Positions 11,532 to 28,981 of a DNA stretch of 61,581 nt are shown here, one piece after another; positions within the stretch are counted from its first letter, which is position 1, and the number at the start of each line of letters is the position of its first letter. The translations under genes were made by a program, and so were the position numbers. The notes beneath the pieces are model-generated. The model worked only from the letters and a program-made list of their open reading frames with translations, was not told the origin of the DNA and did not search any database. The stretch comes from a virus, in IMG/VR virus record IMGVR_UViG_3300046368_001160, positions 1 to 61,581 of that record; one strand, written 5' to 3'.

Positions 11532-14500
11532 TTATTGATCATGTGCAGATGCTACTGCACGTGAAACTTTGCGGCCGTCCATGTTAACAGAAATGCCACC
11601 CTTTCTCATAAGTAGGATCAACTCATCTAATTTCTTTACTACTTTAGAACCATCTTCGGTTTTTTCTGATTCTACCGATGGTGTGTCTTTGCCTACTATC
11701 TTTGCAATTTCTTCTACGAAAATATTATGACCCTTGACACTTATTGTATCAAGTCCACTTAACTCTATGTTTGTTGAACTTTCTGGTTTATCTACATCAG
11801 AGAATACATCAAGTAAACTAAAATCGGGTATTAAATTGCTAGTAAAATCTGCAATTTTTGTTAGCATATTAGTTGGTGCCGTTGCAGTTTCTTGTAATTG
11901 AGCATTCATCGGTTCTACTTGACTTTGAATCGTAGGTTGGTTGGCACTTGGTTGTACTCGATTATTTATGGGTTCTACTTGACTTTGAGTCTTGTTAACT
12001 ACAAGTCTTCCTTCATCTGTCAATTGTTGTCTACGTGACTCTAACAACTTGTTCAGTGAGTCATTTTCAAGGGTTGTGCCATTGATGATTGCTTCGTCTA
12101 ACATCTTAATTCTAGACCCGGCACTATTTGCAAGTTTATCCGAAACATCTGTTACACTAACATTCGTGGTTTCTTCTACTTTTGTGAATCCATCTTCATC
12201 TTCATACATCCGTCTGTTCGTGTCTGTGTTTATACCTACAAGTTGACCTTCTGCGTAAAGTTTAGTTGGTAGTTCTTTCCTTAAAACTCCTGCCATGATT
12301 TGATCTAATAAACCGGTCGATTGTGCGACTTTTTCATATTGAATAGATGAAGTAAATTCATTTTCGGTGATTTTACCGTTACTTGAATTTAAAGTGGAAG
12401 CATCTTTTGCAGACATTACTCCCATGTCACCTAAAATATTATTTGTTACAGATTCATTGACACCAAGTGACCGTTTATATGCTTCCATTGAATGATCTTC
12501 ATCTAAATTGAAGTATTCATTTTTAGCAAAATCAGAAAACTTTTGTTTTATAGACTCAGGTATAAATTTGGTGTAAATACTACCAACGACATCAACAATA
12601 GGTTGAACCATTTCATTTACTTTTTTAGCATCTTTTATTTTTTCATTTTTAAGAATACTTATTTCAGGTTTTTGCTCTGTTACTATTTCAGGTGGAGGTG
12701 ATGAAAATACATCTGCTAATGATGTAGTTCCAGTCTCGGTTACTTGTTGAACTTGAGTCTCAGTAGTTGGAGTTGAAAATACTTCTGCTAATGATGTAGT
12801 TCCAGTCTCGGTTACTTGTTGAACTTGAGTCTCAGTAGTTGGAGTTGAAAATACTTCTGCTAATGATGGACCAGGTGTTGCGAATGGATCACTTGGTGGC
12901 AAAGAACCTCCTGCTACATCAACCACAGGTAAATCGGCCATTTCAGTCATCATAAGTTTAGGACCAATTGTGCCTTCTATTATTTGTTGCTCGGATTTTC
13001 TTGCTGGTATTTTAATTGGAGTTTGAACTCCACCTAGATTTATGTTTTGTAAACCACCGAGTTTATCAACATCAAGTTTTTCAATTACATCACACAACAT
13101 ATACAACTCACTTGTTATAGCACTTAATGCTTCAACTGCTGGATCCTGTATTCCTGAAAATGAATTAATTGCATCAACTACCTCAGATGTAAATGTTTTT
13201 AGTTTATTTACATTTTCTAAATTCAAAGTATTTGATATGTCCGATAAAGTTGTTAGTTTATTTACTATACTTAGATCACCTATGCTACTCAACTTACTCA
13301 TACTTTCAATAAATTTTGGAAATGCAGCTCCCGTTTGTTTAAAGAATGTATTTATTTTGCCGGCCTCACCATCATTTACATAATCAGCAAATTGCTCTAC
13401 ACCTTTACCAAGATCAATTAAGATGCTATCAAATCCTTCACTTGGAAGTGGTGCTTGGGCAAATGCTTTTAAGAATGGAATCATTCCTTGTTGTATTGTT
13501 ACGAGATGTGGTAATATTGTTAAGTCGGTGGGTGCGAGTTCATCAAAGAATTGAAAAATTCCATCTCCCACATTGTTCATGATTGAGTGTACGTCTTCTG
13601 AAATTGATGACAATGGAATTGTTGCAAAGTTAGTTATAAACGGAGTTATTCCTGCGTTTATTTCTACCAAGTTAGGTAATATTGTTAAGTCAGTGGGTGC
13701 GAGTTCATCAAAGAACTGATAGATACCGTCACCTAAATCATTCATAATAGAACTTATGTCTTCTGAAATTGATGATAATGGAAGTTCAGAGAAGTCTGTT
13801 ATGAATGGAATCATGCTAACTCCAATCTCAGGTAATATCTTTATTTTTGATGTATTTACTTCGTCCATTGCATTAAAAAATTCATCTAATCCGTCAGCAA
13901 CTTTTACTAAATTCTTAGAATCACTTGTTTTTATTTTAGGTAACGAACGAGATAATCCATTTAATAATTTGGTTAAACCTCCCGATATTCTTTCTATAGA
14001 AGCAATTGTAGTTGGTTGTACACTTTCAAAAACATTAAAGAAATCACCCAACCCATCACTAACCATTTCAATTTTGTCTTCAAAATCATCGGTTACATTG
14101 TTTAAAAATCCACCCAAATTTAAATTACTAAGCATTTCAAATGATTCTACATTTATGTCAACTGAACCTAATTTAGCAATTAAATCGATTACCTTGTCAA
14201 CAGGTGATTCTTGGTCTTGACCCAACAACCCACCTATAAAACCAGTTAAACCTCCACCAGTTGCTCTGGCTGCTCCAGCACCAAATGTAATTAAAGCATC
14301 TCCAAATACTTTCAACGCTTCAGCTGCACGTGTTAGTACAGTTTCCATGTTGGACATTTTTTCAAATGATGTTAATAATAAATCTAAACCATCAGAAACT
14401 CCAACAATAGATTGTGCTTGATTAGCAAAATCAAGTATTTTTTGCAAAGGACTTTTATTAAGTTCTTTGGTATCACCTGCACCCAAAACCGAAGCGATTT

Positions 14501-17500
14501 TGTTGCCAAATGCTCCAGCTGCATTGGAAGCACCTTCTAAAACTTTGCCTCCTGCTTGTTTGATTTGCATACCTAGTAACTTGTTTGAAAATGATGCGAT
14601 TGCATCACCGGCCGGTTCTAATATTGCTTCAAGACCATTTAATTGCTGAAATGATAACATAAGTGCATCTAAATTAGTGGTTGCCAAACCAAGACTCTCT
14701 GCTCTGTCCGCAAATTCTAAAATCTTTTCAAATGGACTACGGGTATCTGCTTGTCCCAATGTCACAATTTCTGCGACTCCATTACCAAGTCCTCCTACCG
14801 CATTACCAAGTCCATTTATTGCAGATGCACCACCCATAGCAGCCATTGCTTTTGACATTTCCCAAATAGCATCAGATGCTTGTGTTAATTTCTTTGAATC
14901 AACACCACTTAAACGAATGATATCGTCTGTTACAGATGTTACTGCTCCCGCTATAGAATTTATTACTCCTGATATTCCACCCGAAATTGAATTTATTACT
15001 CCTGATATTGCGTCACCGATTGCAGTTACGACACCTACAATCGCATCACCCACGGATGTTATTGTATCCGAAATTGCATTTGCAACGGAAGTTATTAATG
15101 ATGCAAATCCTTCAAAAACTGCTTTGTAAATATTTGCGATTGCGTTTCCAACTGATTCTATAATACCACCTACAGTTTGAAATACTTTTACGATAACCCC
15201 ACCCACAACTTTTGCAAATTCAATTATTCCACCAATTATCGCCTCAAGTGCTTTTACCATAATAGATGCAAATCCCAAAAAGACTTTTCCAAATGCTTCA
15301 ATTCCAGGTGTTGCTAAGTTTAACGCATATGCAAGAGGTATCAACGATGCACCTAATGCAGCGATTGCCACCGCACCTAGTAGTATTGCAGCTGCTCCTA
15401 CTCCACTACTCATAATCGCACCCAATTTCATAGCAGCCACTCCAAGAACTATTAATGCACCTGCTACTACGAATACCGTTTCAATTCCGACACCTTTCAT
15501 CATATTAAGTGCAAACGCAAGTGGAATTAATGCAATAGATAATACCCCAATTGCGAGAGCTCCTTTTATCATTGCCGTACTTCCTTTGCTCATAGCTTTA
15601 GCAGCGACTGCGAGGGCTGCTATTACAGCAAGTCCTGGCCATGCGTTTTTCCAATTAACTTTCCCAAACTCTTGAAATGCTTTAGCGGCAACATACATTG
15701 CTCCTGATAATATAAAAATTGATCCAGCGACAGCAAATAACTTGCTTGGTTTTATTCTATTGATTGCAGTCGTAATTCTTCCGAGTATTCCACTACCTTT
15801 TTTACCCCCTCCTCCACCTTTAAATAGTTTAGAAGTAAGACTGCTCGCAAATCCATTTATCAGACCCAATACTACTTTTAATCCAACAAATAATCCTGTA
15901 ATTACGATTAGATTTGTAATCAGACTATGACCAAAGAAGTTTGAAAAGAATGCACCGACACTCATTACAACCGTTCCGATAGATTCGATTGCACTTCCGA
16001 TTCCCATTATTGTGTCTTTTAGATCATTCCCCCGATCACTGAGCTCCGTAACTTGTTTTCCATCCACACCTATTCCTGTTTTAACAAACGACTGAAAGAA
16101 ACCTTCAATTTTAGGCAATATTTTCTCTACAAGTGGAACTAATGCTGTTGAAATTTTGTACATTAGTTCTTTGATACGAGTTTGCATTGCTTCTATTGAT
16201 TCTGCTTTTTTGTTTTCTAGTTCCATCAATTTCAACTTATCAATGGCCGTCATATTTTCTTCTTCTTTTGCTTTATTGCGCCGGGCCATTGCATCCTCTG
16301 CCCATGCTTCTCCTGCATTAGCAGCGTTTTGTAGCATTCGTTCTTGTTCACGGGCTTTATTCATGTTCATCAACTCACCTACAGTTGTACCCATTGCTTC
16401 CGCAAGTGCTTTTTGTTGAAACCGATTCATGTTTTCAAGACCACCCAAGGAATCCATAATTTTATGTCGTTCTTCAAGCATTGCATTTGCATCACCTGCC
16501 ATTGCAGCTTGACGAAGACCCTGTAGGTGGAGTTGTCTACCAAACATCGTACTTGCTTGCATTTCCGAATTTATACTTCCTTCAAAATCTAATAATGCTT
16601 CAGCAGATGATGCTACATCTTCTAAACTACTTCCCATACGACGTGCATGAATTGCACCAGATGCGAGTGCTTTTGCAGAACCTTTTGCAAATATTAAAGC
16701 ATCTTCACCTGCACTGGATACATCTTCCATGACCTGTGCGTATTTTACTCCATGTTTTTGAGAAAGAGTTTGCATCTCCATAACAAGTCCTTCTGCTTCT
16801 CCACGAGCAGTAGCACCTAGTTTCATCAAATTTGACATAGCACTTGTTGTAGTGGCAGCTGATACACCAAGTGTTTGTTCCATTCTTGCTACAAATTCTA
16901 CTTGATTAGCAGACGCATGATCAATGGCTGCGTTTACATCAGAAAATGCACCAACTGCGGCGTAGAGTTCTTTAACGTCTAAACCTAAACCACTTCCGTT
17001 TTTTGATGATCTTTCAATTTGCTCCACCTGGTCACGTATACCTGCAACTTGAAATGCACTCGCACCCATTTCCATTCTAAACTCTTTTGAAGCACCTTGT
17101 AAACGACTAACTTGATCAAATGCACTTTTGAGTAAAAATAACAATCCACCAACCGCCACCAAGACCAAAGTAAACGGATTTAATAATGCTCCGATCACTG
17201 CTTTTCCCATTCCGGCAATTCCAGATACCAAAGACTTTGTTCCAGCTGCCATTGCTCCTAAACTTCCTGCTCCTTTGTCAGCTGCGTCAGCTGCATCTAA
17301 AAATGCTTTTCTAAGAGATTTTTTTGCTAAATCAGTTGCTTCTTCTAGTGGTTTTTTAAGATGTGCAGATAACATACCCCCCACCAATGGAAACTTCCCA
17401 AAAAATCCATCTATTCCTTGTGATATACCATCGAGCATACCCTCATATTCTTCTAAGATTGGTTGTGCTTGTTCAACTAATTTCTTTTTGGCATCACCTT

Positions 17501-18203
17501 GTTTTTCTAAAATTCCTAATAACTCTTGATTTTTCTTTAAATTATCATCTGACAATTTAACTTGTTTATGTAGGTGCTGATTTAATTTACTTGAACGATC
17601 CGAAGAAACTCCCGTTGTATTTGCAATTTGTTCAAGTGTTGCCAACTCAGTATCTCTAAAATGAGTTGCAGCTTCAATTTGTCCAATGTAATCTGCTACT
17701 TTGGTATTTGCCCGTGATAAGGTTTCTTCAATTTGTTTGACTTTATCTTTTTGTGAATCATATGCAGAATCTTTTACATTCAATAAAAGAAGTGCTTCTT
17801 GCTCTTTTTCAAGTTGTAATTGTATACCGGGAATTGTTTGTTCAGTTACTTCTTTTAAGTCCGTCTGACGTTCTGCGATACTGTTTGTAATATCAGTTCT
17901 TTTTTTACCTATTTCTGCAAGTTGGTCTGATTTACTTACGTGACTTGATAAATCACCTTTCAGTTCTTCGGAAAATTTTCTTATTTGTTCAAAATATGTA
18001 GAACTTCCAGCTAAGTTTTGATTTAAAGCTTTAACTTTATCATCACCAACGGTTTCTATAGCAATATCATAATTTCCTTCAAGTATTGCTTCTTGAAATT
18101 TTTTGACTATATCAGTTTTAATTGCGTTGAATTCAGGCGCAAGATTTTCAGTCACTGACTTTTGCAGTGTCTGAGTAAAATCTGTAACATCTATAATATC
18201 CAA
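11532..18203 (-). CDS. Tail tape measure protein
   Basis: This 2223-residue protein scaffolds tube polymerisation and sets tail length, and is later ejected. Residues 1-270 are a charged coiled coil. Hydrophobic segments occur near residues 330-360, 755-785 and repeatedly between 820 and 1000 (runs of Ala, Leu, Val and Gly), as is usual for tape measures. A conserved globular part lies around 370-670. From about 1050, short Gly/Ile/Val repeats (GDAI..V, SGVINSI) and then ~52-residue repeats containing DGIYQFFDELAPTDLTILP follow. Near residues 1780-1830 a Thr/Gln/Val-rich 25-residue unit is repeated exactly. The start codon is TTG (plus-strand caa at 18201-18203), with no in-frame ATG nearby, so translation is likely coupled to the upstream gene. 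At about 0.15 nm per residue the tail would be some 330 nm, much longer than in T4. Confidence 0.92.
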   Translation of the reverse strand: MDIIDVTDFTQTLQKSVTENLAPEFNAIKTDIVKKFQEAILEGNYDIAIETVGDDKVKALNQNLAGSSTYFEQIRKFSEELKGDLSSHVSKSDQLAEIGKKRTDITNSIAERQTDLKEVTEQTIPGIQLQLEKEQEALLLLNVKDSAYDSQKDKVKQIEETLSRANTKVADYIGQIEAATHFRDTELATLEQIANTTGVSSDRSSKLNQHLHKQVKLSDDNLKKNQELLGILEKQGDAKKKLVEQAQPILEEYEGMLDGISQGIDGFFGKFPLVGGMLSAHLKKPLEEATDLAKKSLRKAFLDAADAADKGAGSLGAMAAGTKSLVSGIAGMGKAVIGALLNPFTLVLVAVGGLLFLLKSAFDQVSRLQGASKEFRMEMGASAFQVAGIRDQVEQIERSSKNGSGLGLDVKELYAAVGAFSDVNAAIDHASANQVEFVARMEQTLGVSAATTTSAMSNLMKLGATARGEAEGLVMEMQTLSQKHGVKYAQVMEDVSSAGEDALIFAKGSAKALASGAIHARRMGSSLEDVASSAEALLDFEGSINSEMQASTMFGRQLHLQGLRQAAMAGDANAMLEERHKIMDSLGGLENMNRFQQKALAEAMGTTVGELMNMNKAREQERMLQNAANAGEAWAEDAMARRNKAKEEENMTAIDKLKLMELENKKAESIEAMQTRIKELMYKISTALVPLVEKILPKIEGFFQSFVKTGIGVDGKQVTELSDRGNDLKDTIMGIGSAIESIGTVVMSVGAFFSNFFGHSLITNLIVITGLFVGLKVVLGLINGFASSLTSKLFKGGGGGKKGSGILGRITTAINRIKPSKLFAVAGSIFILSGAMYVAAKAFQEFGKVNWKNAWPGLAVIAALAVAAKAMSKGSTAMIKGALAIGVLSIALIPLAFALNMMKGVGIETVFVVAGALIVLGVAAMKLGAIMSSGVGAAAILLGAVAIAALGASLIPLAYALNLATPGIEAFGKVFLGFASIMVKALEAIIGGIIEFAKVVGGVIVKVFQTVGGIIESVGNAIANIYKAVFEGFASLITSVANAISDTITSVGDAIVGVVTAIGDAISGVINSISGGISGVINSIAGAVTSVTDDIIRLSGVDSKKLTQASDAIWEMSKAMAAMGGASAINGLGNAVGGLGNGVAEIVTLGQADTRSPFEKILEFADRAESLGLATTNLDALMLSFQQLNGLEAILEPAGDAIASFSNKLLGMQIKQAGGKVLEGASNAAGAFGNKIASVLGAGDTKELNKSPLQKILDFANQAQSIVGVSDGLDLLLTSFEKMSNMETVLTRAAEALKVFGDALITFGAGAARATGGGLTGFIGGLLGQDQESPVDKVIDLIAKLGSVDINVESFEMLSNLNLGGFLNNVTDDFEDKIEMVSDGLGDFFNVFESVQPTTIASIERISGGLTKLLNGLSRSLPKIKTSDSKNLVKVADGLDEFFNAMDEVNTSKIKILPEIGVSMIPFITDFSELPLSSISEDISSIMNDLGDGIYQFFDELAPTDLTILPNLVEINAGITPFITNFATIPLSSISEDVHSIMNNVGDGIFQFFDELAPTDLTILPHLVTIQQGMIPFLKAFAQAPLPSEGFDSILIDLGKGVEQFADYVNDGEAGKINTFFKQTGAAFPKFIESMSKLSSIGDLSIVNKLTTLSDISNTLNLENVNKLKTFTSEVVDAINSFSGIQDPAVEALSAITSELYMLCDVIEKLDVDKLGGLQNINLGGVQTPIKIPARKSEQQIIEGTIGPKLMMTEMADLPVVDVAGGSLPPSDPFATPGPSLAEVFSTPTTETQVQQVTETGTTSLAEVFSTPTTETQVQQVTETGTTSLADVFSSPPPEIVTEQKPEISILKNEKIKDAKKVNEMVQPIVDVVGSIYTKFIPESIKQKFSDFAKNEYFNLDEDHSMEAYKRSLGVNESVTNNILGDMGVMSAKDASTLNSSNGKITENEFTSSIQYEKVAQSTGLLDQIMAGVLRKELPTKLYAEGQLVGINTDTNRRMYEDEDGFTKVEETTNVSVTDVSDKLANSAGSRIKMLDEAIINGTTLENDSLNKLLESRRQQLTDEGRLVVNKTQSQVEPINNRVQPSANQPTIQSQVEPMNAQLQETATAPTNMLTKIADFTSNLIPDFSLLDVFSDVDKPESSTNIELSGLDTISVKGHNIFVEEIAKIVGKDTPSVESEKTEDGSKVVKKLDELILLMRKGGISVNMDGRKVSRAVASAHDQ
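12718..12857 (-). repeat. Tandem 75-bp repeat in the tape measure gene
   Basis: Two nearly identical direct copies, 75 bp apart, encode the 25-residue unit containing TPTTETQVQQVTETGTTSLA. The difference is confined to one or a few bases. This suggests a recent in-frame duplication in the C-terminal, non-helical part of the tape measure. Confidence 0.85.
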
Positions 18204-18217
18204 AACTATATATCCAG

Positions 18218-18499
18218 TTACATAAGGTCTTTAAGTGTTTTTAAATTCGGATCATTTTTTGTTGCGTCTATTAAATCTTGCCTACTTGTTAATCCGAGTC
18301 TTTTTAATTCTTGTTTAAATTTTTTGGTATCTTCAACGTAATCATCAAATGCTTTAACCATACGAGGATCTTTAAACATTTTTTTTCCGACTTTAAGTGC
18401 TTTACTATTGAATATCTTTGTTACCAATTTTCCAAAGAATTCGTGCAATATTTGTTCCTCGTTTAGAGGTTCTTTTTTAGTGATTTTATTTTTTTCCAT
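18218..18499 (-). CDS. Small charged protein upstream of the tape measure
   Basis: This gene encodes 93 residues from the ATG at 18499; an upstream in-frame ATG at 18532 would add 11 residues. It is Lys/Glu/Asp-rich and probably helical, with the segment KKMFKDPRMVKAFDDYVED. There is no signal peptide or membrane helix. It lies between the frameshifted gp26-like extension and the tape measure, a position usually occupied by tail assembly chaperones or minor hub proteins. I infer a role in tape-measure or tube assembly from context only. The stop at 18218 is 14 nt from the TTG start of the tape measure gene, which fits translational coupling. A TATATTTAT element precedes it at 18535-18544. Confidence 0.65.
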   Translation of the reverse strand: MEKNKITKKEPLNEEQILHEFFGKLVTKIFNSKALKVGKKMFKDPRMVKAFDDYVEDTKKFKQELKRLGLTSRQDLIDATKNDPNLKTLKDLM

Positions 18500-18534
18500 A
18501 TTATAAATTCCAGAGAGTGTACATATATCCATGT

Positions 18535-18572: not shown

Positions 18573-18803
18573 CTACCTAAATGATGGTTTAGAACGAGGA
18601 GAAGCAGATGTTTTTGCTTTTGCTTGTTGAGCTTTTACTTGCTCGTTCTCTTTGGTTTTTACATCCAACAATTTTCGTGAGTAAAACCTACGCAGATAAA
18701 TCGGCATATTGTATACGATGCTTTGATTAAAAGCACCTTCACTATAATAACAGAGATTAAAAATCTCTTCGTGTAAACCTATTCTATACTCCGGTGGAAG
18801 GGT
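18573..18803 (-). CDS. Start-less 76-codon ORF, +1 frame extension of the gp26-like gene
   Basis: This reading frame runs 76 codons from the end of the T7 run to the TAG at 18573-18575. It has no ATG, GTG or TTG before a Met at codon 33, and a TAG lies in the same frame only two codons upstream of the T run. The sequence is clearly protein-like: EEIFNLCYYSEGAFNQS, then YNMPIYLRRFYSRKL, then a Lys/Gln/Ala-rich tail. The NMPIYLRRFY type of motif is one I associate with small chaperone-like proteins encoded beside baseplate hub genes. Expression as a C-terminal extension of the gp26-like protein by ribosomal frameshifting best explains it. The fusion product would be about 371 aa. Spliced or independently initiated expression seems unlikely. 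Confidence 0.75.
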   Translation of the reverse strand, partial: TLPPEYRIGLHEEIFNLCYYSEGAFNQSIVYNMPIYLRRFYSRKLLDVKTKENEQVKAQQAKAKTSASPRSKPSFR

Positions 18804-19689
18804 AAAAAAAGTCGACCCCTAATGGGATCGTCATCCTTTCAGTATAACCGGTGTCTTCCGATTCAAAGTTAAATGTCATATCTAAATCAGGAGTATTTTC
18901 CTTGATATGTTCACGAAATGCCAAACTATCACGTGCAAGCAATTCTTTATCTACAAAACTTTTGATTCTAGCACGATCATCGTCTCCGTCTAATGCTTTA
19001 ATTACATACTTTAAACGAGTTGTAACTTCTGATGTTTGGTTCTTGTTCTTTGTAAACTTTTTCATTCCTTTGAGTTCTGCATCAATTGCTTGTTCATCTG
19101 AATGAGTAAGTAACTTCCAATGAACTACTCGTTCACTATGAGGAAGTGTATATTCAAAAATATTATCACCACGTGTATAACTTTCAAAATTTAATTCTCG
19201 TGGGTCTAATTTAGTAAGATCAATTGTATCTTCTACATCGTCACCAGTTGATGGGTCTTTAAACTTAATTTTATAGTCTTTACCATACGCAAGAACACGT
19301 GCAGCGATGAAAATTGCGTTTTTATCACCAACTAAAATATCATCTAGTTTAACACCAGGAGAAATAATAAGTTGTTCAAGCAATTTATCTAAAACGATTC
19401 CTTTTTTAATAAGATTTTGACTTGTTAAAATGTCTTCTTCTTTTGCAGTCATGTACTTGATGTCTACTCGACCACTTGCAAGTGGTGAAGATTGATCATA
19501 AAACCACCCTTTACTTGGTAAATCTACAACTTCACTTGGATATTCTGTTTTTTGAACAGTGTCAGTTTGTTGTTTAAGTACATTTGCATCAGTGGTTCTG
19601 ACGTTTTGTGTTTCAGATGCGGTTGGTCCATCACTTTTCATTGCCTGACGAACTTCGTCTGGGATTTTAATACTATCTTCGTTTTCCAT
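18784..19689 (-). CDS. Baseplate hub / tail assembly chaperone, gp26-like
   Basis: This 301-residue protein has the pattern of the T4 gp26 base plate family: VVDLPSKGWFY near residue 55, YMTAKEEDILTSQNLIKKG, then LVGDKNAIFIAARVLAYGKDY. T4 gp26 is about 208 residues. The N-terminal 45 residues are polar and probably disordered. The gene ends GVDFFYPSTGV. The two Phe codons lie on a run of seven T that could shift ribosomes into the next frame. It stands immediately upstream of the tape measure region, as tail assembly chaperones do. The start is an ATG behind AAAAAGG. In lambda-type phages the frameshifted chaperone binds the tape measure; I infer the same division of labour here. Confidence 0.75.
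   Translation of the reverse strand: MENEDSIKIPDEVRQAMKSDGPTASETQNVRTTDANVLKQQTDTVQKTEYPSEVVDLPSKGWFYDQSSPLASGRVDIKYMTAKEEDILTSQNLIKKGIVLDKLLEQLIISPGVKLDDILVGDKNAIFIAARVLAYGKDYKIKFKDPSTGDDVEDTIDLTKLDPRELNFESYTRGDNIFEYTLPHSERVVHWKLLTHSDEQAIDAELKGMKKFTKNKNQTSEVTTRLKYVIKALDGDDDRARIKSFVDKELLARDSLAFREHIKENTPDLDMTFNFESEDTGYTERMTIPLGVDFFYPSTGV
18804..18810 (-). promoter_or_regulatory. Candidate programmed frameshift slip site (T7)
   Basis: On the minus strand the end of the gp26-like gene reads GAC TTT TTT TAC, giving a homopolymer of seven T. A Phe tRNA on the second TTT can re-pair one base forward. Reading then continues ACC CTT CCA CCG into the 76-codon ORF without a stop. A -2 slip gives the same frame. 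A -1 slip would hit TAG after eight codons. Confidence 0.65.
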
Positions 19690-19779: not shown

Positions 19780-20121
19780 TTAAATGTCAGCAAGAGCAAA
19801 ACTTAGTATTTTCTTATGGTCTTTGTAACTGAAAAACTCACTATCTTTTCTACCCTTCCAAGTCTTGTTCGCAGTTACACCAAGTTTCATATCATTAAAA
19901 ACTATCTTTTTACCACTTCCGGTTTGAAATACCATTCTTCCTGCGTTATCGTCAATGTCATAATTTCGCAGAAATTTTCCTCCTTTTACTTGTTGAAGTA
20001 AGAACTTGGCAAGTTTGGCATATGCACCACTTAGACCTTCTAATTGTAGTTCACTTTGAGTATCTTGTTTTATTTCTTCAAAGATATCGAGTATTTGATT
20101 TTTAAGTTTGTCAGATTTCAT
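19780..20121 (-). CDS. Hypothetical protein, 113 aa, in the tail cluster
   Basis: This gene encodes 113 residues from the ATG at 20121; an upstream in-frame start would add nine residues of AT-rich leader. The N-terminal half is helical and charged (LDIFEEIKQDTQSELQ). The C-terminal half is probably beta-rich and carries a Gly-Ser-Gly-Lys turn. No recognised family, signal or membrane segment was found. It is flanked by a terminator/promoter junction upstream and by the gp26-like gene downstream, so it is an independently transcribed tail-region gene. There is no Shine-Dalgarno sequence. The TATATTTAT element ends only 7 nt before the ATG, which suggests a leaderless transcript. Function unknown; a minor tail or assembly factor is likely by context. 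Confidence 0.65.
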   Translation of the reverse strand: MKSDKLKNQILDIFEEIKQDTQSELQLEGLSGAYAKLAKFLLQQVKGGKFLRNYDIDDNAGRMVFQTGSGKKIVFNDMKLGVTANKTWKGRKDSEFFSYKDHKKILSFALADI

Positions 20122-20128
20122 TGTATTA

Positions 20129-20138
20129 ATAAATATAT
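20129..20138 (-). promoter_or_regulatory. Putative late promoter element (ATATATTTAT)
   Basis: This element reads ATATATTTAT on the minus strand. It begins 8 nt after the terminator hairpin that closes the tail tube unit and ends 7 nt before the next ATG. The hairpin leaves little room for a -35 box, which suggests a promoter with a -10-like element only. Confidence 0.55.
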
Positions 20139-20146
20139 ACAAAAAC

Positions 20147-20174
20147 AAAAAAACTCCCCGAAGGGAGTTTTTTT
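20147..20174 (-). terminator. Intrinsic terminator after the tail tube gene
   Basis: A perfect stem AAACTCCC/GGGAGTTT with a short CGAA loop is flanked by A and T runs. On the minus strand it ends in at least seven T. It lies 28 nt after the tube stop codon. Confidence 0.9.
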
Positions 20175-20201: not shown

Positions 20202-20693
20202 TTAGTATTGAAGAATTGCGTAGTCATACGCAACAGTCAAGTTAACATTCAAAGGATCACCTGTTGACCAGTCTAATGTACCGAAGTCAACTGCGGTACA
20301 AAAAGCACCCTTGATTGTCCACTCTTCAACCTTATCACCGACAGGACCAAGTAGATTAATTGTCATGTCTTTCTTGTAGAAGTCGGCATAACCATTTCTA
20401 CCAGTTACTGACTCGTGTGAGAGACGTATCCATTCCATTGCACCTTGAGCGGCACTTGGAACAACTGGATCATAAAGTGTCATCGTGATATCTTGCCATT
20501 CTGCTTTACCACCACGTAGTTTTCTTTTAATATTAATATGATCGATTGTTACTGGATCTATATTAAGATTAGGACGTGTTACAGACTTAATTAGATATGC
20601 GGGTAATCCGTCCATATACATAATGAATCTGTTTGCTGTTTTTGGTTCGAATGCCGTAAAGAACATTTCGTTTACATCTATTACTTCTGCCAT
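20202..20693 (-). CDS. Tail tube protein (gp19-like)
   Basis: Hexamers of this protein stack to form the inner tail tube through which DNA passes. The 163 residues match the T4 gp19 size and pattern: an N-terminal FEPKTANRFIMYMDG, a central RKLRGGKAEWQDITMTLYD, and a closing beta strand region (LDWSTGDPLNVNLTVAYD). There is no signal or membrane segment. The start is the ATG at 20693 with GGAGAAA 9 nt upstream. Two TATATTTAT-type elements lie 39 and 89 nt before the ATG, and a strong terminator follows, so the gene forms its own highly expressed unit, as expected for a major virion protein. The sheath gene is upstream in the same region, as in T4 (18-19). Confidence 0.92.
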   Translation of the reverse strand: MAEVIDVNEMFFTAFEPKTANRFIMYMDGLPAYLIKSVTRPNLNIDPVTIDHINIKRKLRGGKAEWQDITMTLYDPVVPSAAQGAMEWIRLSHESVTGRNGYADFYKKDMTINLLGPVGDKVEEWTIKGAFCTAVDFGTLDWSTGDPLNVNLTVAYDYAILQY

Positions 20694-20811: not shown

Positions 20812-21519
20812 TTATTTATTTTTATCTTTAGTTAGTTTTTTTCCAACTATTTTTGCTGAACCATATAATACTGCCCCTATAAACTGCATATGTTGTGGTC
20901 CTGGCCAAGGAAATGATAAACCTATCATACCCGTTGCAAACAATGTCAGCAATGCCATTCCTTCTGGTCCAGCAAATAACTTTGATAATGTGAATCCCCC
21001 ACCGAGAGCCATAATCATGTCTCCCATATCAAAGTCATAATCTGCATTTCCTGTGAATGTCATATTTAACCAAATATAAACGAGTATACCAGCAACTGCT
21101 AATCCCGCTATTTTCTTGGTTCGTGGGTGCTTTGCTAGAAATGCGTCTAAATCTTTGAGTTTTTCTTCCGTCCACTTTCCCACCTTAGTGCTTGCTACAT
21201 ATTCACCAATTGCTTTTATTACTTCTTTATATGCTTTAAATCCTTTCTTAACAAGTTTGAACAGATACTCCATGCTGAACTTGATTTTTGCAAAGAACTT
21301 GAAAACAACCTTATCCATAAACAACTTAACCAAGTCTTTTAATTTTACGGAAAGCTTTCCTTTTAAATCTTTTATGAATCCCCATACTTTCTTCAACTTA
21401 CCTGGTATTATTATTTCGTTTATTAGTTGAGTAGTTTCCGTTAGTTTATGTTCGTTTACAAACGACACAAATTCATCGTACTGAATTTCAATTACTATAT
21501 CTGTTAAACTTTGATTCAT
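20812..21519 (-). CDS. Predicted membrane-associated protein, 235 aa
   Basis: This gene encodes 235 residues from the ATG at 21519; a non-preferred upstream start adds eight. Residues 1-135 are Lys-rich amphipathic helices (KLKDLVKLFMDKVV, then LFKLVKKGFKAYKEV). A hydrophobic segment near 138-158 (IAGLAVAGILVYIWLNM) and two weaker ones (about 170-190 and 195-215) suggest a C-terminal membrane hairpin or triple span. No family is recognised. It is transcribed alone, between a terminator and the tube unit, from an element only 6 nt before the ATG. Possible roles are a virion pilot or channel protein, or a holin-like factor, but neither is supported by a diagnostic motif. Confidence 0.65.
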   Translation of the reverse strand: MNQSLTDIVIEIQYDEFVSFVNEHKLTETTQLINEIIIPGKLKKVWGFIKDLKGKLSVKLKDLVKLFMDKVVFKFFAKIKFSMEYLFKLVKKGFKAYKEVIKAIGEYVASTKVGKWTEEKLKDLDAFLAKHPRTKKIAGLAVAGILVYIWLNMTFTGNADYDFDMGDMIMALGGGFTLSKLFAGPEGMALLTLFATGMIGLSFPWPGPQHMQFIGAVLYGSAKIVGKKLTKDKNK

Positions 21520-21525
21520 TCTACT

Positions 21526-21535
21526 ATAAATATAT
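21526..21535 (-). promoter_or_regulatory. Putative late promoter element (ATATATTTAT)
   Basis: This element reads ATATATTTAT on the minus strand. It lies 7 nt after the sheath terminator hairpin and 6 nt before the ATG at 21519. Confidence 0.55.
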
Positions 21536-21541
21536 ATCCAC

Positions 21542-21572
21542 AAAAAAACCCTTCCGTAGAAGGGTTTTTTTA
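21542..21572 (-). terminator. Intrinsic terminator after the tail sheath gene
   Basis: The stem ACCCTTC/GAAGGGT with a CGTA loop is flanked by A7 and T7, extending the pairing. It lies 22 nt after the sheath stop codon. Confidence 0.9.
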
Positions 21573-21593: not shown

Positions 21594-24266
21594 TTACCCA
21601 AAAGCGGCACCGGTTGCTTGTAAGTTAAAATCAAGTATGATAAACTCAACTGCACGTGCTGGTTGCAAGAATATTTGTCCATAAAGGATGTTTCTGTCAA
21701 TCAAGTCAGGTGTGTTGTTTGATTCGTCCATGATAACATTGAACGCATACAAACCTTGACGTTGTTGAACTGCTTCCAAATAAGGATTAACGATTGCCAA
21801 GAACTTGTTACGAGTAGCAGCGGTATTTTGTTCAAATAACAAATAACGTGATGTACTTGCGATAAACTTCTTGAGAGTGATCAACAAACGTCTAACATTG
21901 ATTCTATCAAGTGCAGATGATCTTCTTTGAAGAGTCTTTTGACCGAATGCTACGATTCCTTGACCAGGAAACTGAGCAATAGGGTTAACCTTACCTTCAT
22001 AAAGAGTATCTCTTTCTGCGAATGTAAGACGATCAAGCACACTTACTGCTCCTTCAAGACCACCACGATTTAAACCGGCAGGTGCAAACCACTCAGCAGC
22101 GGTTTTATCATTGGAAGCATAAACTGCTGGCATAATAGCACTTGGTGGGAAAGGTTGAAGTGCGTTAGTCGCAGGATCAATAATTTTAACCCAAGGATAA
22201 TATGTCGCAGCGTAATTACTATCAATAGTTGATGCTTGTAATACTGCTTCATCTACCAATCCAGGTTGTCCATTTGCTTGAACACAATCAAGAATGTAAA
22301 AACAATCTTCACGTGTTTCACACAAATCAACACCCATGTTAATAACACTTCTGTGTAAGTCCAATGTAAGTCCAGGTGTTACAAGCAAGTTAATATCGAA
22401 CTCGTCTTGGTTGCTAAGTGCTTTAAATGCTCGTTCGTAACCTTGTGTACCTGATGTGAATCGTTTACTACAATCCATTCCCTGTACATTGTCAGCACGG
22501 ATATCGTCACCAAGAAGAACTGGTAAAACAGGAGAATCTCCATCTTCACCACCTTGAAATCCTATTAAGAATCTACGATGACCACGTGCATCTGCTTCTT
22601 CACTTGCACTTGATGGTACACTTGGAATAGGAACAAATGTTTCAGTTTCAATAACTCCGTCAATATCTTTGTGAATAGTTCCAGGTTGATCCATGTAAAA
22701 TCCAACACCAGCGAATCCGGAATTTTCAGGAATTGGAGAAAATAACTCGATTGTATCTTTACTCCACTCAGGAATCTTAAGAACTCCGTCTGGTGAATCT
22801 TCATTGAATACTGCACCACAGAAGTATCTTTTTGGTACACGTGAGTATTGAGATGCATATGAGTATTTAGGTTCTGGTAAATCCAAAACTCCGATTGGGC
22901 ATTGATAAGCAGCGTGTCCGTAAGGCATACATTGCGTAGGAGCAATACTTTGCTTTGGCATTTCAACACGAATCCAATCACTTCCATTTACATAATCACC
23001 ACGTTCAATAATTTTACCCATTTCATTGATGTATGTATAACGATCACCAATAACACGTGGAAGGTATCTAGCACTCAATGGATCAAGAGTTACATCTCTG
23101 AAATCTTCTATGACATCTTGAGTTTTATCATTATCACCGAAACCACGAACAACGACACTAAATGAACCGTACTCAGTTCCGTCAAGTGTACCTGGAGTTT
23201 TAACATTGTAAATACCAACTTTAACTTCACGATTAGCCGAACCACCAAAACTGCGAGTATGAAATCTAAATAGTTCGTATCTTGAACCACTGATTTCTTG
23301 TGACATTACATATGGAGTGGAAGCAGGACGACAAGCGTGTTCACCTTTTCCAGCACCATCATATGCAGGATACTGATAATCTGTATCTTGGTAGTTAAGA
23401 TATCCATCCCCATCTGCATCTTCTAATTGAGAAGAAAAGTTCAAGAAGTCATCGTTCATTTCAATTGAAATTTTGTACTTTGCAGCCACACCACCGTCAG
23501 CAACAGGTTTCATAAGATTGAAGATTTCTGTTTGTGTACTTTCAAAGTATGAATCAAAGTACGCAGGTTTAACATTTCTTTGTGGTGCTCTTCCGAAAAT
23601 ATTTTGTAAACTATTAGGAGATGCTGGATCAATACTAAATGTAAACGAACCAAGTTCAGTTGGTTCAAGTTCATTGTTGCTTGTTGCACTATCTTGTTCG
23701 TTGAAAACTTGTCTTAGTACTAACTGACCTGTTGTGTTCTCACTGCTAAGTTCAAGTTCAGTAACTTGGTTTCCGTCTGAATCTTGTAAATATGATCCGT
23801 AGAATCCAATACTTGTTTGTCTTGGTGATGCCAAGTTTGGTTTTAGAATTAACGAACCATCGTTATTTTTTTCTTTTAAAGTATTTGCCAATACACCAAT
23901 TACTGCTTCTTTTGGAATGTCACCTTCTGCAATATCTGACTGATCAAGACTTGCGGTAACAAACTCTGCTTTAATCGCAAGTGCTTGTAAATTATACCAC
24001 CCTTCAAGAGCACCAGTTCTCACAATTGTGACAACTCCTTGTTGTAGAAGATATTCACGTGCGGTGAATGGTTGGTAATAAATACCTTGTGGAACACCAA
24101 ACAGTGCTTCTAATTCGTTAATACTTGTTACAACGGTTGGTGAATATGCTGGACCTTTTGTGAAAGGACCTACAATCGCACCACCTATTGCCGAAATTCC
24201 TTCAACCAAGAAAGTTGAATCTATTTCATTGGTGAATACTGCCGGACTTACTATACGTTCTGCCAT
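21594..24266 (-). CDS. Contractile tail sheath protein (gp18-like)
   Basis: This protein polymerises around the tube and contracts to drive infection. It has 890 residues (T4 gp18 has 659). The N-terminus, SPAVFTNEIDSTFLVEG, then IGGAIVGPFTKGPAYSPT, is the standard sheath handle region. The C-terminal domain contains PIAQFPGQGIVAFGQKTLQ and NVRRLLITLKKFIASTSRYL, then FEQNT and a final beta strand ending DFNLQATGAAFG, the conserved sheath core that interlocks subunits. The extra length lies in the middle (about residues 150-600), which would form outward-facing domains. SD AGGAGAAA precedes the ATG at 24266. It forms its own unit between a promoter-like element and a strong terminator. Confidence 0.95.
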   Translation of the reverse strand: MAERIVSPAVFTNEIDSTFLVEGISAIGGAIVGPFTKGPAYSPTVVTSINELEALFGVPQGIYYQPFTAREYLLQQGVVTIVRTGALEGWYNLQALAIKAEFVTASLDQSDIAEGDIPKEAVIGVLANTLKEKNNDGSLILKPNLASPRQTSIGFYGSYLQDSDGNQVTELELSSENTTGQLVLRQVFNEQDSATSNNELEPTELGSFTFSIDPASPNSLQNIFGRAPQRNVKPAYFDSYFESTQTEIFNLMKPVADGGVAAKYKISIEMNDDFLNFSSQLEDADGDGYLNYQDTDYQYPAYDGAGKGEHACRPASTPYVMSQEISGSRYELFRFHTRSFGGSANREVKVGIYNVKTPGTLDGTEYGSFSVVVRGFGDNDKTQDVIEDFRDVTLDPLSARYLPRVIGDRYTYINEMGKIIERGDYVNGSDWIRVEMPKQSIAPTQCMPYGHAAYQCPIGVLDLPEPKYSYASQYSRVPKRYFCGAVFNEDSPDGVLKIPEWSKDTIELFSPIPENSGFAGVGFYMDQPGTIHKDIDGVIETETFVPIPSVPSSASEEADARGHRRFLIGFQGGEDGDSPVLPVLLGDDIRADNVQGMDCSKRFTSGTQGYERAFKALSNQDEFDINLLVTPGLTLDLHRSVINMGVDLCETREDCFYILDCVQANGQPGLVDEAVLQASTIDSNYAATYYPWVKIIDPATNALQPFPPSAIMPAVYASNDKTAAEWFAPAGLNRGGLEGAVSVLDRLTFAERDTLYEGKVNPIAQFPGQGIVAFGQKTLQRRSSALDRINVRRLLITLKKFIASTSRYLLFEQNTAATRNKFLAIVNPYLEAVQQRQGLYAFNVIMDESNNTPDLIDRNILYGQIFLQPARAVEFIILDFNLQATGAAFG

Positions 24267-24685: not shown

Positions 24686-27600
24686 TTAAATTGTTTCACA
24701 AATATTGATTTCAATGCGTTTTATTCTTTTATGTGGAACACTGTAATAATATTCTTCGTTGAAACTACCTATCAATGGTAAAGTGTAAGAATCAGTCTCG
24801 TAATCAGAAAACTGAATTGTTGCATTATAGCATAGTTCTTCATCCGATATTAAAAATACCGACTGCTGGTCTGTTGATATTTCGTCACCACTTGTATATT
24901 CAATAATAGTTGGATTTAAATCTCCGTTTAAATCATCTTGAGTTAGAGTATATGGATTGGAATCATCTGAAACTGAAACTAGATATAGTTTTACTTGTAA
25001 CGGTTCTGTTGTGATAGTTTCAGTTTGAGTTTCAGTCGGAGTTGGAGTTGGTGTTTGCTCAGGAGTTGGTGTCTCGGTTTGAGTTGGAGTTGGTGTTTCG
25101 GTTGGAGTTTCTGTTTGAGTTGGAGTTGGTGTTTCGGTTGGAGTTTCTGTTTGAGTTGGAGTTGGTGTTTGCTCAGGAGTTTGAGTTTCGGTTGGAGTTG
25201 GAGTTGGTGTTTGCTCAGGAGTTTGAGTTTCGGTTGGAGTTGGAGTTGGAGTTTGCTCAGGAGTTGGTGTTTCGGTTGGGGGTGGTGTTTCAGTTGGGGA
25301 TGGTGTTGGAACTGAAGTATCGATTATTAAAATCTCAATGCTTACGTTTTTCCACTCATTTCTTCCAGTACTTGAACCCGCCAACTCTAATGTAAAAGTT
25401 TCAATCCCCTCAGACTTAAAATCTTCGATTGGTATAAAAGAAACAGATGCTGTTCCGTCTTCATCAATTATAAAACTACCAACTAAGTCCGACACTCCAA
25501 GGTCACCTCTATTTGTAACTATGTAACTTACATCTGTTCCGGTGGGAACATTTACAGTTCTTAATGTTATTGTAACTTCAGAACCTTCATCTATCTCCAA
25601 AGAAGAGGTCACGAGTTCATAGACGGGTGGAACAGATGTATCTTTTATTTCGACAGAAATTCTATTATTTTGCCATTGATTACCTCCTATACTTGAACTT
25701 ATAAGTTCTAGTGTGAGTGTTTCTGTACCCTCTGTTTTAAAGTCCTCTATTGGTGAAAATGTAATAGAGGTGTTGCCATTGTCGGATACAATAAATTCAC
25801 CAATAAAACTTTTACCGAAATCATCTGGATTTGACATTGCATAACCTACTCTAGTCCCACTTGGAACATTAATTGTCGCAAGTGTAACGACTAAAGCATC
25901 TCCTTCATTTATTGTGTCAGTTGAGGTTTCTAACTTATATTGTGGAATTGGAGTCGGAGTTGGTGTTTTCTCAGGAGTCGGAGTTGGTGTCGGTGTATCA
26001 GTTTGAGTTGGTGTAGGTGTATCAGTTTGAGTTGGTGTATCAGTTGGAGTCGGAGTTGGTGTTTTCTCAGGAGTCGGAGTTGGTGTCTGCTCAGGAGTTG
26101 GAGTTGGTGTTTGTTCGGGAGTTGGAGTTTCAGTTGGTGTCTCAGTTGGAGTTGGTGTATCAGTTGGAGTCGGAGTTGGTGTTTTCTCAGGAGTCGGAGT
26201 TGGTGTTTTCTCAGGAGTCGGAGTTGGTGTCGGTGTATCAGTTTGAGTTGGTGTATCAGTTTGAGTTGGTGTATCAGTTGGAGTCGGAGTTGGAACTGAT
26301 GTATCATTTATGGTAATTGTAATGCTTTCATTTTTCCATTCATCACGTCCTGTGCTTGAACCAGCGAGTTCCATTGTGAAAGTTTCTTCATCTTCTAAAA
26401 GATAATCTGCTATTGGAGCAAATGTTACACTTGCAGTTTTATCGTTTCCAACTGTGAATGTTCCTAGTGGTTTCTCAACTCCTAAGTCTTCTATATTTGT
26501 AAGAACATAAGTAACTTCTGTTCCAATTGGTACATTTGTTGTTTTTAAAGTTATTGTAACTGAATCACCTTCATCAACTTCTAAAGCAGATGATTCAAGT
26601 GTATAAGTTGGAGGAGTTGAAGAATCAACGATTGTAACTGAAACACTTGTGTTTCTCCATTGTTCTCCGTTGATGCTTGAATCTATCAAAGTCAAAGTTA
26701 GAATCTCAGTTCCTTCAATTTGATAATCTTCTTGTGGTGTGATTTTTAAAGTTGTTTCTCCTGTTTCTGATACTTCGAATTCTCCGATTGGTGTAAGATT
26801 TGCAAAGTCATCTGGATGAGTTATTGCATAACTTACTAAAGTACCGCTTGCAACATTAGTAGTTCTAAGTGTGATTGTAACTTCTTCTCCTTCATTGATT
26901 GTGTAAGGAGATGCTACGAGTTCATAAATTGGAACTGGAGTCGGTGTATCAGTCGGAGTATTTGTTGGTGTATCAGTTGGAGTATTTGTTGGTGTATCTG
27001 TTGAAGTTGGTGTCTGAGTTTCTGTTGGAGTCGGTGTATCAGTTGGAGTATTTGTTGGTGTATCTGTTGAAGTTGGTGTCTGAGTTTCTGTTGGAGTCGG
27101 TGTATCAGTTGGTGTATTTGTTGGTGTATCAGTTGGAGTATCTGTTGAAGTTGGTGTCTGAGTTTCTGTTGGAGTTGGTGTATCAGTTGGAGTATTTGTT
27201 GGTGTATCAGTTGGAGTATTTGTTGAAGTATCTGTTGAAGTTGGTGTCTGAGTTTCTGTTGGAGTCGGTGTATCAGTTGGAGTATTTGTTGGAGTATCTG
27301 TTAGAGTTGGTGTAGGTGTATCAGTCGGAGTATTTGTTGGAGTTGGTGTATCCGTTGGAGTATTTGTTGGAGTATCTGTTAGAGTTGGTGTAGGTGTGTT
27401 GGTTGGAGTTGGTGTTTTTTTTTCCCTTGGTGTGGGTGTTTCGTCATGCCGATGTGGACCACACGTCGGAGTTGGTGTCTCGGTTGGAATTGTTTGATCG
27501 GGAGTGGGAGTTGGAGTTTGCTCGGGAGTAGGAGTTGGTTGTTCAAGTGTAGGAGTTGGAGTTTGCTCTGGAGTAGGAGTTGGTTGTTCAAGTGTAGGAG

Positions 27601-28981
27601 TTGGAGTTTGCTCTGGAGTAGGAGTTGGAGTTTGCTCGGGAGTAGGAGTTGGTTGTTCGGAAACAGGAGTGGGAGTTTGATCAGGAACTGGAGTAGGTTG
27701 TACAGGAGTTGGATTTGGTTGATCAGTATTTGGAAATTTTATTAACAAAAGTTCCAGTGCATTTTTAGTAATTACTTGTACTCCACTTCCTGTATCAAGT
27801 TCAATGTTATATTGATTGTTAGGTGTAATTTCTATTTCAGACAAACCTACATCCCATATTATTTTATGATCGGACTCGTCTATATTAATTCTAAAGTTTC
27901 TACCTTCTATGTTGATAGTATAATCAAGAAGATCTTTCCAAATTCGGACAACAAATATATCACCCTGATCTTTTGTTAAATAAACTTTTGGTGATTTTCT
28001 GTTTAATACTACACTCTTTTCTGTTGTATTTGCTTTTTTTTTAAAGTCGAGTGATAACTCAGTTTGTGTGTGCTTAGTCGGTTTTCCTAATTCATCTGTA
28101 GATACATATTGTGCTTCAGTACCCCACATTACTTTTCGTGTACTTAGTCCTCTTTTTATATTTGTTTGGTTGTTGAAAACCAATGGAAGTAAATACGCAT
28201 TTATAGTTAAAGTGAAAGTTGAACTTACTGATCTATCATCGTCAGATGGTACTTCAACTGAATTGGAGAAAGAATCTATATTTGCTCTGAACTTAAATCT
28301 AGCAGGATCACCCCAATAATCATTATCCGCAAAATTTATAGTTTCAATTAACTGATTCATTTGCTCGACATACTCCGTGTTTATTGTAAAGTCGTATGTC
28401 AAAACTACATGATCAGGAAAAGTTATGTTATGTATTTCGTGTAAGGGCTCTGCACTGTTTAATAAACTTATTTTATCGTATGAATTTTTACTACTGAATT
28501 TTTTGACCACAGGAACAGACAAATATTTATTAAATGTAACAAATGAATCATCTTTTGCTACACCAGTTCTAGTGAAAACTATAATGGGTCTTTGTAACTG
28601 ACCCTTATCATCTCTGTATCTACCATCACTTTGAATCGCACTCCACCTCTCGGGTGATGCGTGTCTAACAGGTACACTTATTTTTGAATTGTTTGTATCA
28701 ATAACAGTTGGATTAATAACATTAGTAAAATATTCATAAATTATATTATCTATATCAACCAAAGTAATTGAATAGTTACCAAATGTTTTAACATCATCTC
28801 CCCATCTTAATTTATCTGCACGATTGTCAGAATACAACGCATGATTTGATTTTTTAAGATTGGACATATTTGGATCGTTTGAAACATTAGGCACATCCTT
28901 ACTCAAGTCAACCGTAAATTCTTTATCGGTTTTATGATTTCTAAGCGTAATAAAGGGATTATTTACTTTATCGTAATCCAT
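24686..28981 (-). CDS. gp15-like tail completion protein fused to Calx-beta and Pro/Thr-rich extension
   Basis: This protein has 1431 residues. Residues 1-330 resemble T4 gp15, which caps the tail and stabilises the sheath: [14 protein letters not shown], then [16 protein letters not shown], then [18 protein letters not shown] and a final beta region. T4 gp15 is only about 272 aa. After a small beta domain (about 330-420) come a Pro/Thr-rich linker (about 420-685), two Calx-beta-like domains (about 686-893; [17 protein letters not shown]), a second linker (894-1012), two more Calx-beta-like domains (1013-1223), a third linker (to about 1322) and a C-terminal beta domain. The linkers are TPTPTPEQ-type repeats. 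The tail end of the virion would thus carry a long extended appendage. It starts 1 nt after the gp14-like gene. Confidence 0.75.
25022..25312 (-). repeat. Low-complexity Pro/Thr-coding repeat, tract 3
   Basis: Degenerate 6-bp units (ACTCCA, ACACCA type on the minus strand) encode [14 protein letters not shown] repeats. The tract stays in frame throughout. Confidence 0.9.
25940..26300 (-). repeat. Low-complexity Pro/Thr-coding repeat, tract 2
   Basis: This tract encodes [11 protein letters not shown] and EKTPTPTP units between the second and third Calx-beta-like domains. Several 30-60 bp segments recur exactly or almost exactly. Confidence 0.9.
26930..27725 (-). repeat. Low-complexity Pro/Thr-coding repeat, tract 1
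   Basis: This is the longest tract. It holds higher-order units such as [18 protein letters not shown] and is interrupted once by a His-bearing segment ([12 protein letters not shown]). Length changes by whole repeats would keep the frame. Confidence 0.9.

Follow-up and report, generated by a model that had tools for sequence, protein, structure and literature searches.

The production of a short and a long tail assembly chaperone through a frameshift is a textbook design. The G–T frameshift was described in a review as conserved in long-tailed phages except T4 (PMC5009743). The chaperone genes of T4-like phages were identified by Vladimirov, Gautam and Davidson (Virology, 2022), and some T4-like phages were described there as having, in place of a frameshift, a short gene together with a longer, fused one, as relayed by a citing paper (PMC10885494); on that account the short/long correspondence in T4 is already published and hence not new. 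Chaperone genes of T4-like phages contain poly-T −1 signals, according to PMC12846349, and the −1 case of the cyanophages described below is probably not new. For +1 programmed shifts no general motif has been identified (PMC10885494). In RF2 tests cited in the same paper, CUU was the codon most prone to +1 shifting, followed by UUU and CCC, and the +1 site of influenza PA-X, UCC_UUU_CGU, was mapped by mass spectrometry (PMC3498833). A conserved +1 branch of chaperones with a UUU-Y or CUU-U site appears to be new; a prior report of such a branch was not found in a non-exhaustive search of the open-access literature.

The stretch of DNA analysed here (the window) was IMG/VR virus record IMGVR_UViG_3300046368_001160, 61,581 bases, positions 1–61,581. 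Its tail genes are arranged on the minus strand in the order sheath, 243-aa ORF, tube, 122-aa ORF, gp26-like gene, +1-frame ORF, 104-aa ORF and tape-measure-sized gene (Table 1). Comparison of sequences indicates that a programmed +1 frameshift on one gene very probably yields two tail assembly chaperones, a short one of 301 aa and a long one of 371 aa. The overlapping ORF pair sits between the tube gene and the tape-measure-sized gene; a first-pass annotation had placed it upstream of the latter, and one small ORF (18532–18218) intervenes.

Table 1. Features of the tail cluster in the window (positions are those of the window).
Feature	Coordinates	Strand	Evidence
Tail sheath protein	21594..24266	(−)	Family profile matches
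243-aa ORF in tail cluster	20812–21543	(−)	No family match above noise
Tail tube protein (gp19 family)	20202..20693	(−)	Family profile matches
122-aa ORF in tail cluster	19780–20148	(−)	No family match above noise
Zero-frame ORF, 301 aa, gp26-like putative short tail assembly chaperone	18784..19689	(−)	PF12322 T4_baseplate; phrog_150 baseplate hub
Open +1 frame, no start codon before conserved core	18573..18818	(−)	Stop TAG 18573–18575; purifying selection
Proposed +1 shift site TTT TTT T (then AC CCT), T7 run	18804..18810	(−)	Re-pairing in relatives
Predicted helical T-like domain of long form, extension residues 7–68	18606..18791	(−)	AlphaFold2 model; cyanophage −1-frame extension related
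Zero-frame stop TAG, end of short form	18784..18786	(−)	Read from sequence
104-aa ORF between chaperone pair and tape measure gene	18218..18532	(−)	No family match above noise
2223-aa tape-measure-sized ORF, putative tape measure gene	11532..18203	(−)	Place and size; Pfam comparison without match

A small ORF (71–104 aa) between the chaperone extension and the tape-measure-sized gene was also seen in many relatives (L001, L002, L010, L012, L013, L050 and L077), although L003 and L020 have none; its product may be an additional factor in tail assembly. Directly upstream of the sheath gene, a 1431-aa ORF (24686–28981) of the tail cluster carries long repeats set among ordinary-looking stretches and had no convincing match in Pfam.

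The gp26-like gene ends, on the minus strand, in GTC GAC TTT TTT TAC CCT TCC ACC GGA GTA TAG. The +1 frame translates as FFTLPPEYRIGLHEEIFNLCYYSEGAFNQSIVYNMPIYLRRFY...; 78 residues (FFTLPPEYR...PSFR) are encoded when reading begins at its first Phe codon (18809). The first ATG, GTG or TTG of this ORF is the ATG of ..VYNMPI.., codon 34 from FF, and lies inside the conserved core. The start-less overlap at the T7 run described in the first-pass annotation was confirmed, and the fused product would have the 371 aa given there, next to the 301-aa form.

The 301-aa ORF matched PF12322 with an E value of 3.6e-6 (27.3 bits, above the curated cut-off of 24.5) and phrog_150 with an E value of 1.2e-7. 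Its structural model had a pLDDT of 83.9, and the best fold matches in BFVD were the SP-15 hub subunit and T4-like hub assembly proteins; no match was returned from the PDB. The AlphaFold2 model of the extension (pLDDT 84.3) had three predicted helices, and a fold search with it gave no match at E ≤ 0.001. DUF6760 (PF20546) was weakly matched by 10 of 60 A8 extensions (best E value 1e-4), which may connect the extension to a family of small proteins outside the phage group; a family search bearing on a possible link to bacterial contractile injection systems gave no matches, its controls being equally silent.

Relatives were gathered by scans of IMG/VR and of bacterial genome contigs, and duplicates were removed by junction sequence to leave 243 loci. 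The scans did not select for one frame, as they relied on first-ORF patterns and on frame-blind tblastn. The extension was present in 242 loci; the remaining one (L400) has the same site and its contig ends 51 bases past the stop. The second ORF lies in the +1 frame in 242/242 of these non-redundant relatives, and the canonical −1 heptamer X_XXY_YYZ was accordingly rejected for the window clade. With the second ORF as query, tblastn found Microcystis phage Mel-JY01, Flavobacterium phage immuto and a 484-kb uncultured phage, each aligned from the junction onward; the first ORF additionally led to Bacillus phage SP-15, Listeria LIS04 and a Streptococcus phage, and in every one of these phages the second ORF is in the +1 frame. 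The +1 overlap recurs in Mel-JY01, in immuto isolates, in uncultured phage LR756508 and in SP-15. Bacterial-genome contigs with relatives (L499–L513) came mostly from MAGs of Bacteroidota (Flavobacteriales and others); they are probably phage contigs binned with hosts and hint at the host range of the window clade.

The junction reads TTT TTT T.. in 212 of the 242 relatives, TTT CTT T.. in 24, TTC TTT T.. in 3, TTT CTA T.. in 2 and TTT TTA T.. in 1, the next codon being TGG or TAC in 239 and the one after it a Pro codon in every case. Re-pairing in the +1 frame is possible on the first codon in 239 loci and on the second in 239, RF2-type re-pairing of CUU to UUU included; one codon or both would allow it in 242/242. 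The T run alone is weak evidence, since the coding of Phe-Phe in both frames already forces much of it; more weight falls on the variant sites and on the third position of the first codon. At the first Phe position 239/242 loci use TTT, compared with a TTT share of 80% in the rest of the gene (P = 5e-20, a value that is only indicative, the loci being related).

A Mu-like programmed −2 frameshift, in which a two-base back-slip on the T run would enter the same frame with one extra Phe, is permitted by the T7 run of the window and by the 212 relatives of that class. In the other 30 (TTT-CTT-T, TTC-TTT-T, TTT-CTA-T and TTT-TTA-T), however, re-pairing two bases back is impossible and the ORF pair is still present. 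A Mu-type shift across the family was rejected on this count, and −2 slippage is held to be very unlikely; of the two directions in the "+1/−2" shift named in the first-pass annotation, +1 is favoured. The natural variants thus favour +1 over −2, and likewise over transcriptional slippage (see below).

The +1 shift would proceed as follows. The majority of ribosomes would keep to the zero frame as far as its stop at 18784 and so produce the short, lambda G-like form. In the remainder, peptidyl-tRNA-Phe (tRNA-Leu in the CUU variants) would rest on the U run while the next zero-frame codon, UAC in the window and UGG in most relatives, is unfilled, and this P-site tRNA would slip one base forward onto the overlapping UUU or UUC codon. 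Translation in the +1 frame would then run to 18573 and give the long, GT-like form, with the helical T-like domain added. By analogy with lambda G and GT (PMC5009743), the short form (the core) would coat or bind the tape measure protein and a few long forms would recruit the tail tube protein through the extension, the two forms presumably having the same roles as in lambda, where the short:long ratio is about 30:1; neither would be part of the virion. We infer the occurrence of slippage from comparison of the relatives; that it affects a minority of ribosomes, on one or the other of the two codons, is part of the proposal.

The surroundings of the site were examined in the 242 loci. The zero-frame stop falls 6–8 codons past the first Phe codon in 236. 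Stops in the +1 frame are frequent in the codons directly ahead of the site (at codon −8 in 67 loci, at −4 in 76 and at −2 in 22), and from the site onward a stretch of 22 codons has none; conservation of the +1 peptide begins at FF, the part upstream not being conserved. The mean folding z of the downstream 60 nt was −0.65 versus −0.18 in a control stretch, and SD-like 4–5-mers upstream of the site were in modest excess (11% versus 2%). A strong stimulatory element, looked for across the relatives in downstream folding and in SD-like sequences, was not found.

Alternatively, the second ORF could be a separate gene, translated from its own start codon or by re-initiation past the zero-frame stop. 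A +1-frame ATG, GTG or TTG is found upstream of the site in 141/242 relatives, the annotation of Mel-JY01 gives the second ORF such a start, and TAATG is the start of the homologous small ORF in Pseudomonas phage Cygsa01 (L093). Against this, 101/242, the window included, have no such codon between the frame opening and the site, and the upstream starts of the others are scattered, with none conserved and with SD-like sequence mostly absent (11/43). The position of the first ATG of the window ORF and the lack of conservation of the +1 peptide ahead of FF likewise speak against it, as does the fused form seen in T4 gp51 and in PHROG 150. A separate gene is therefore regarded as very unlikely indeed, slightly more so than the −2 shift. 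Of the features proposed for alignment across relatives, the T7-type site and the +1 overlap are widely kept, as counted above, and the start-less state is confined to the 101 loci. In the non-overlapping part of the extension pN was below pS in 106/106 pairs, as under purifying selection, and dN/dS of the window extension was 0.09 against L010 and 0.15 against L012; by these measures the second ORF is evolving as a protein.

RNA polymerase can slip on homopolymer runs, and transcriptional slippage on the T7 run would give a mixed mRNA pool, with read-through into the +1 frame on part of it. A run of no more than seven is present, however, and it is shortened to four or fewer in 30/242 relatives that retain the ORF pair, which makes this explanation extremely unlikely. 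A sequencing or assembly error splitting one gene, to which homopolymer runs are prone, was refuted and has next to no probability left: the same frame relation is found in all 242 contigs and in isolate genomes, the downstream zero-frame stops are conserved and the pair is present in variants without a long homopolymer. Programmed frameshifting is supported as the sole reading that fits all the relatives.

Loci related to SP-15, which were not de-duplicated, had the extension in the +1 frame wherever downstream sequence was present. UUU_CGU was the commonest junction among them (15/29 loci, within L182–L213); six loci were without any UUU-Y and had CCC-A in its place, a junction reminiscent of the +1 sites on proline codons in Listeria phage PSA (PMC5009743). 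The gp26 genes of T4-like cyanophages had T_TTT_TTC, one codon, a stop and then a −1-frame extension in 80/80 loci, the extension being about 60–65 aa where the contig continues. A jumbo phage locus (L007) likewise had T_TTT_TTC and a −1-frame extension. In Synechococcus phage S-SCSM1 (L091, about 3163–3240) T_TTT_TTC was kept and the extension was in the +1 frame, apparently as a result of about 11 extra bases past the zero-frame stop, where the annotated gene starts at an ATG; the −1 shift may have been lost here, or the sequence may have changed locally.

T4 gp26 and gp51 were found to be paralogues (hhalign 2.7e-22), both covering PF12322 end to end, and gp51 carries about 48 residues beyond the PF12322 part. 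The cyanophage extension matched gp51 206–249 (8.3e-10) and had no match to gp26; it also matched the extension of the window clade (3.3e-6). As direct profile comparison of the window-clade extension with gp51 gave nothing significant, the two were tied through the cyanophage extension. PHROG 634 ("baseplate hub assembly catalyst") matched the C-terminal portion of gp51 as well as the cyanophage extension, and core and extension together are covered by PHROG 150. From the paralogy, the extra C-terminus of gp51 and these matches, gp26 is taken to correspond to the short form and gp51 to the long form; and because gp51 holds core and extension in one frame, the fused protein is taken to be a natural product of the family. 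The first-pass annotation had named gp26, gp51 and gp28 as T4 counterparts and as separate genes. The link to gp26 and gp51 holds, and they are indeed two genes in T4, related as paralogous short and long forms; gp28 was rejected, as it belongs to a different family (PF11110).

Taken together, it is moderately probable that a homologous chaperone pair switched the direction of recoding in evolution and that a +1 motif of general occurrence in phages, absent from current tools, is defined by the +1 branch. The same core and C-terminal domain, joined at the same Phe-Phe point, would on this reading be linked by a −1 shift in the cyanophages, by a +1 shift in the window clade and the SP-15-like phages, by TAATG restart in some phages and by duplication in T4, and the motif would be UUU-Y or CUU-U followed by a sense codon.

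Programmed +1 shifts are comparatively poorly understood, and the relatives provide a single +1 site in 242 naturally occurring versions. Since a homologous −1 set is available for comparison, direct tests can be made of what governs +1 slippage and of how the direction was reversed. For annotation, an ORF labelled "hypothetical protein" that follows T4-like baseplate-hub genes and precedes the tape measure would often be the tail of a chaperone and not a separate gene. The value of the case lies in the direction of the shift, its breadth and the set of natural variants, the puzzle of T4 having been addressed earlier.

Among known systems, the scheme is that of lambda gpG/gpGT (Xu, Hendrix and Duda, 2004; reviewed in PMC5009743), where the shift is −1 on a slippery heptamer and not +1 as in the window. 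The likeness to gpG is one of scheme and not a homology comparison, the core of the window chaperone being of the T4 gp26 family (PF12322). The gp143/gp144 proteins of phage 0305phi8-36 (PMC2147016) are also alike by scheme: short and long forms with a shared domain were proposed, from two genes and without a frameshift. A +1 shift, like that of the window, was proposed as "very likely" for the chaperone of the Halorubrum myovirus HSTV-2 (PMC5009743), a single archaeal virus. At the level of the site, a +1 slip of tRNA-Phe or tRNA-Leu in the P site onto an overlapping UUU or UUC codon is the feature in common with RF2 (CUU_U) and with PA-X (PMC3498833). CUU_U is present in 24/242 relatives, and PA-X has the UUU_CGU core that is the commonest SP-15-like junction. 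The genes are unrelated in both cases. T4 gp26 and gp51 share a homologous PF12322 core with the window protein, but T4 has two genes and no frameshift where the window has one gene and a frameshift. A further counterpart is the gp26 of T4-like cyanophages (S-CAM8 and the 80 IMG/VR loci), in which a homologous core and extension meet at the same Phe-Phe joint as in the window, with a U_UUU_UUC heptamer leading into the −1 frame, whereas the window clade uses the +1 frame.
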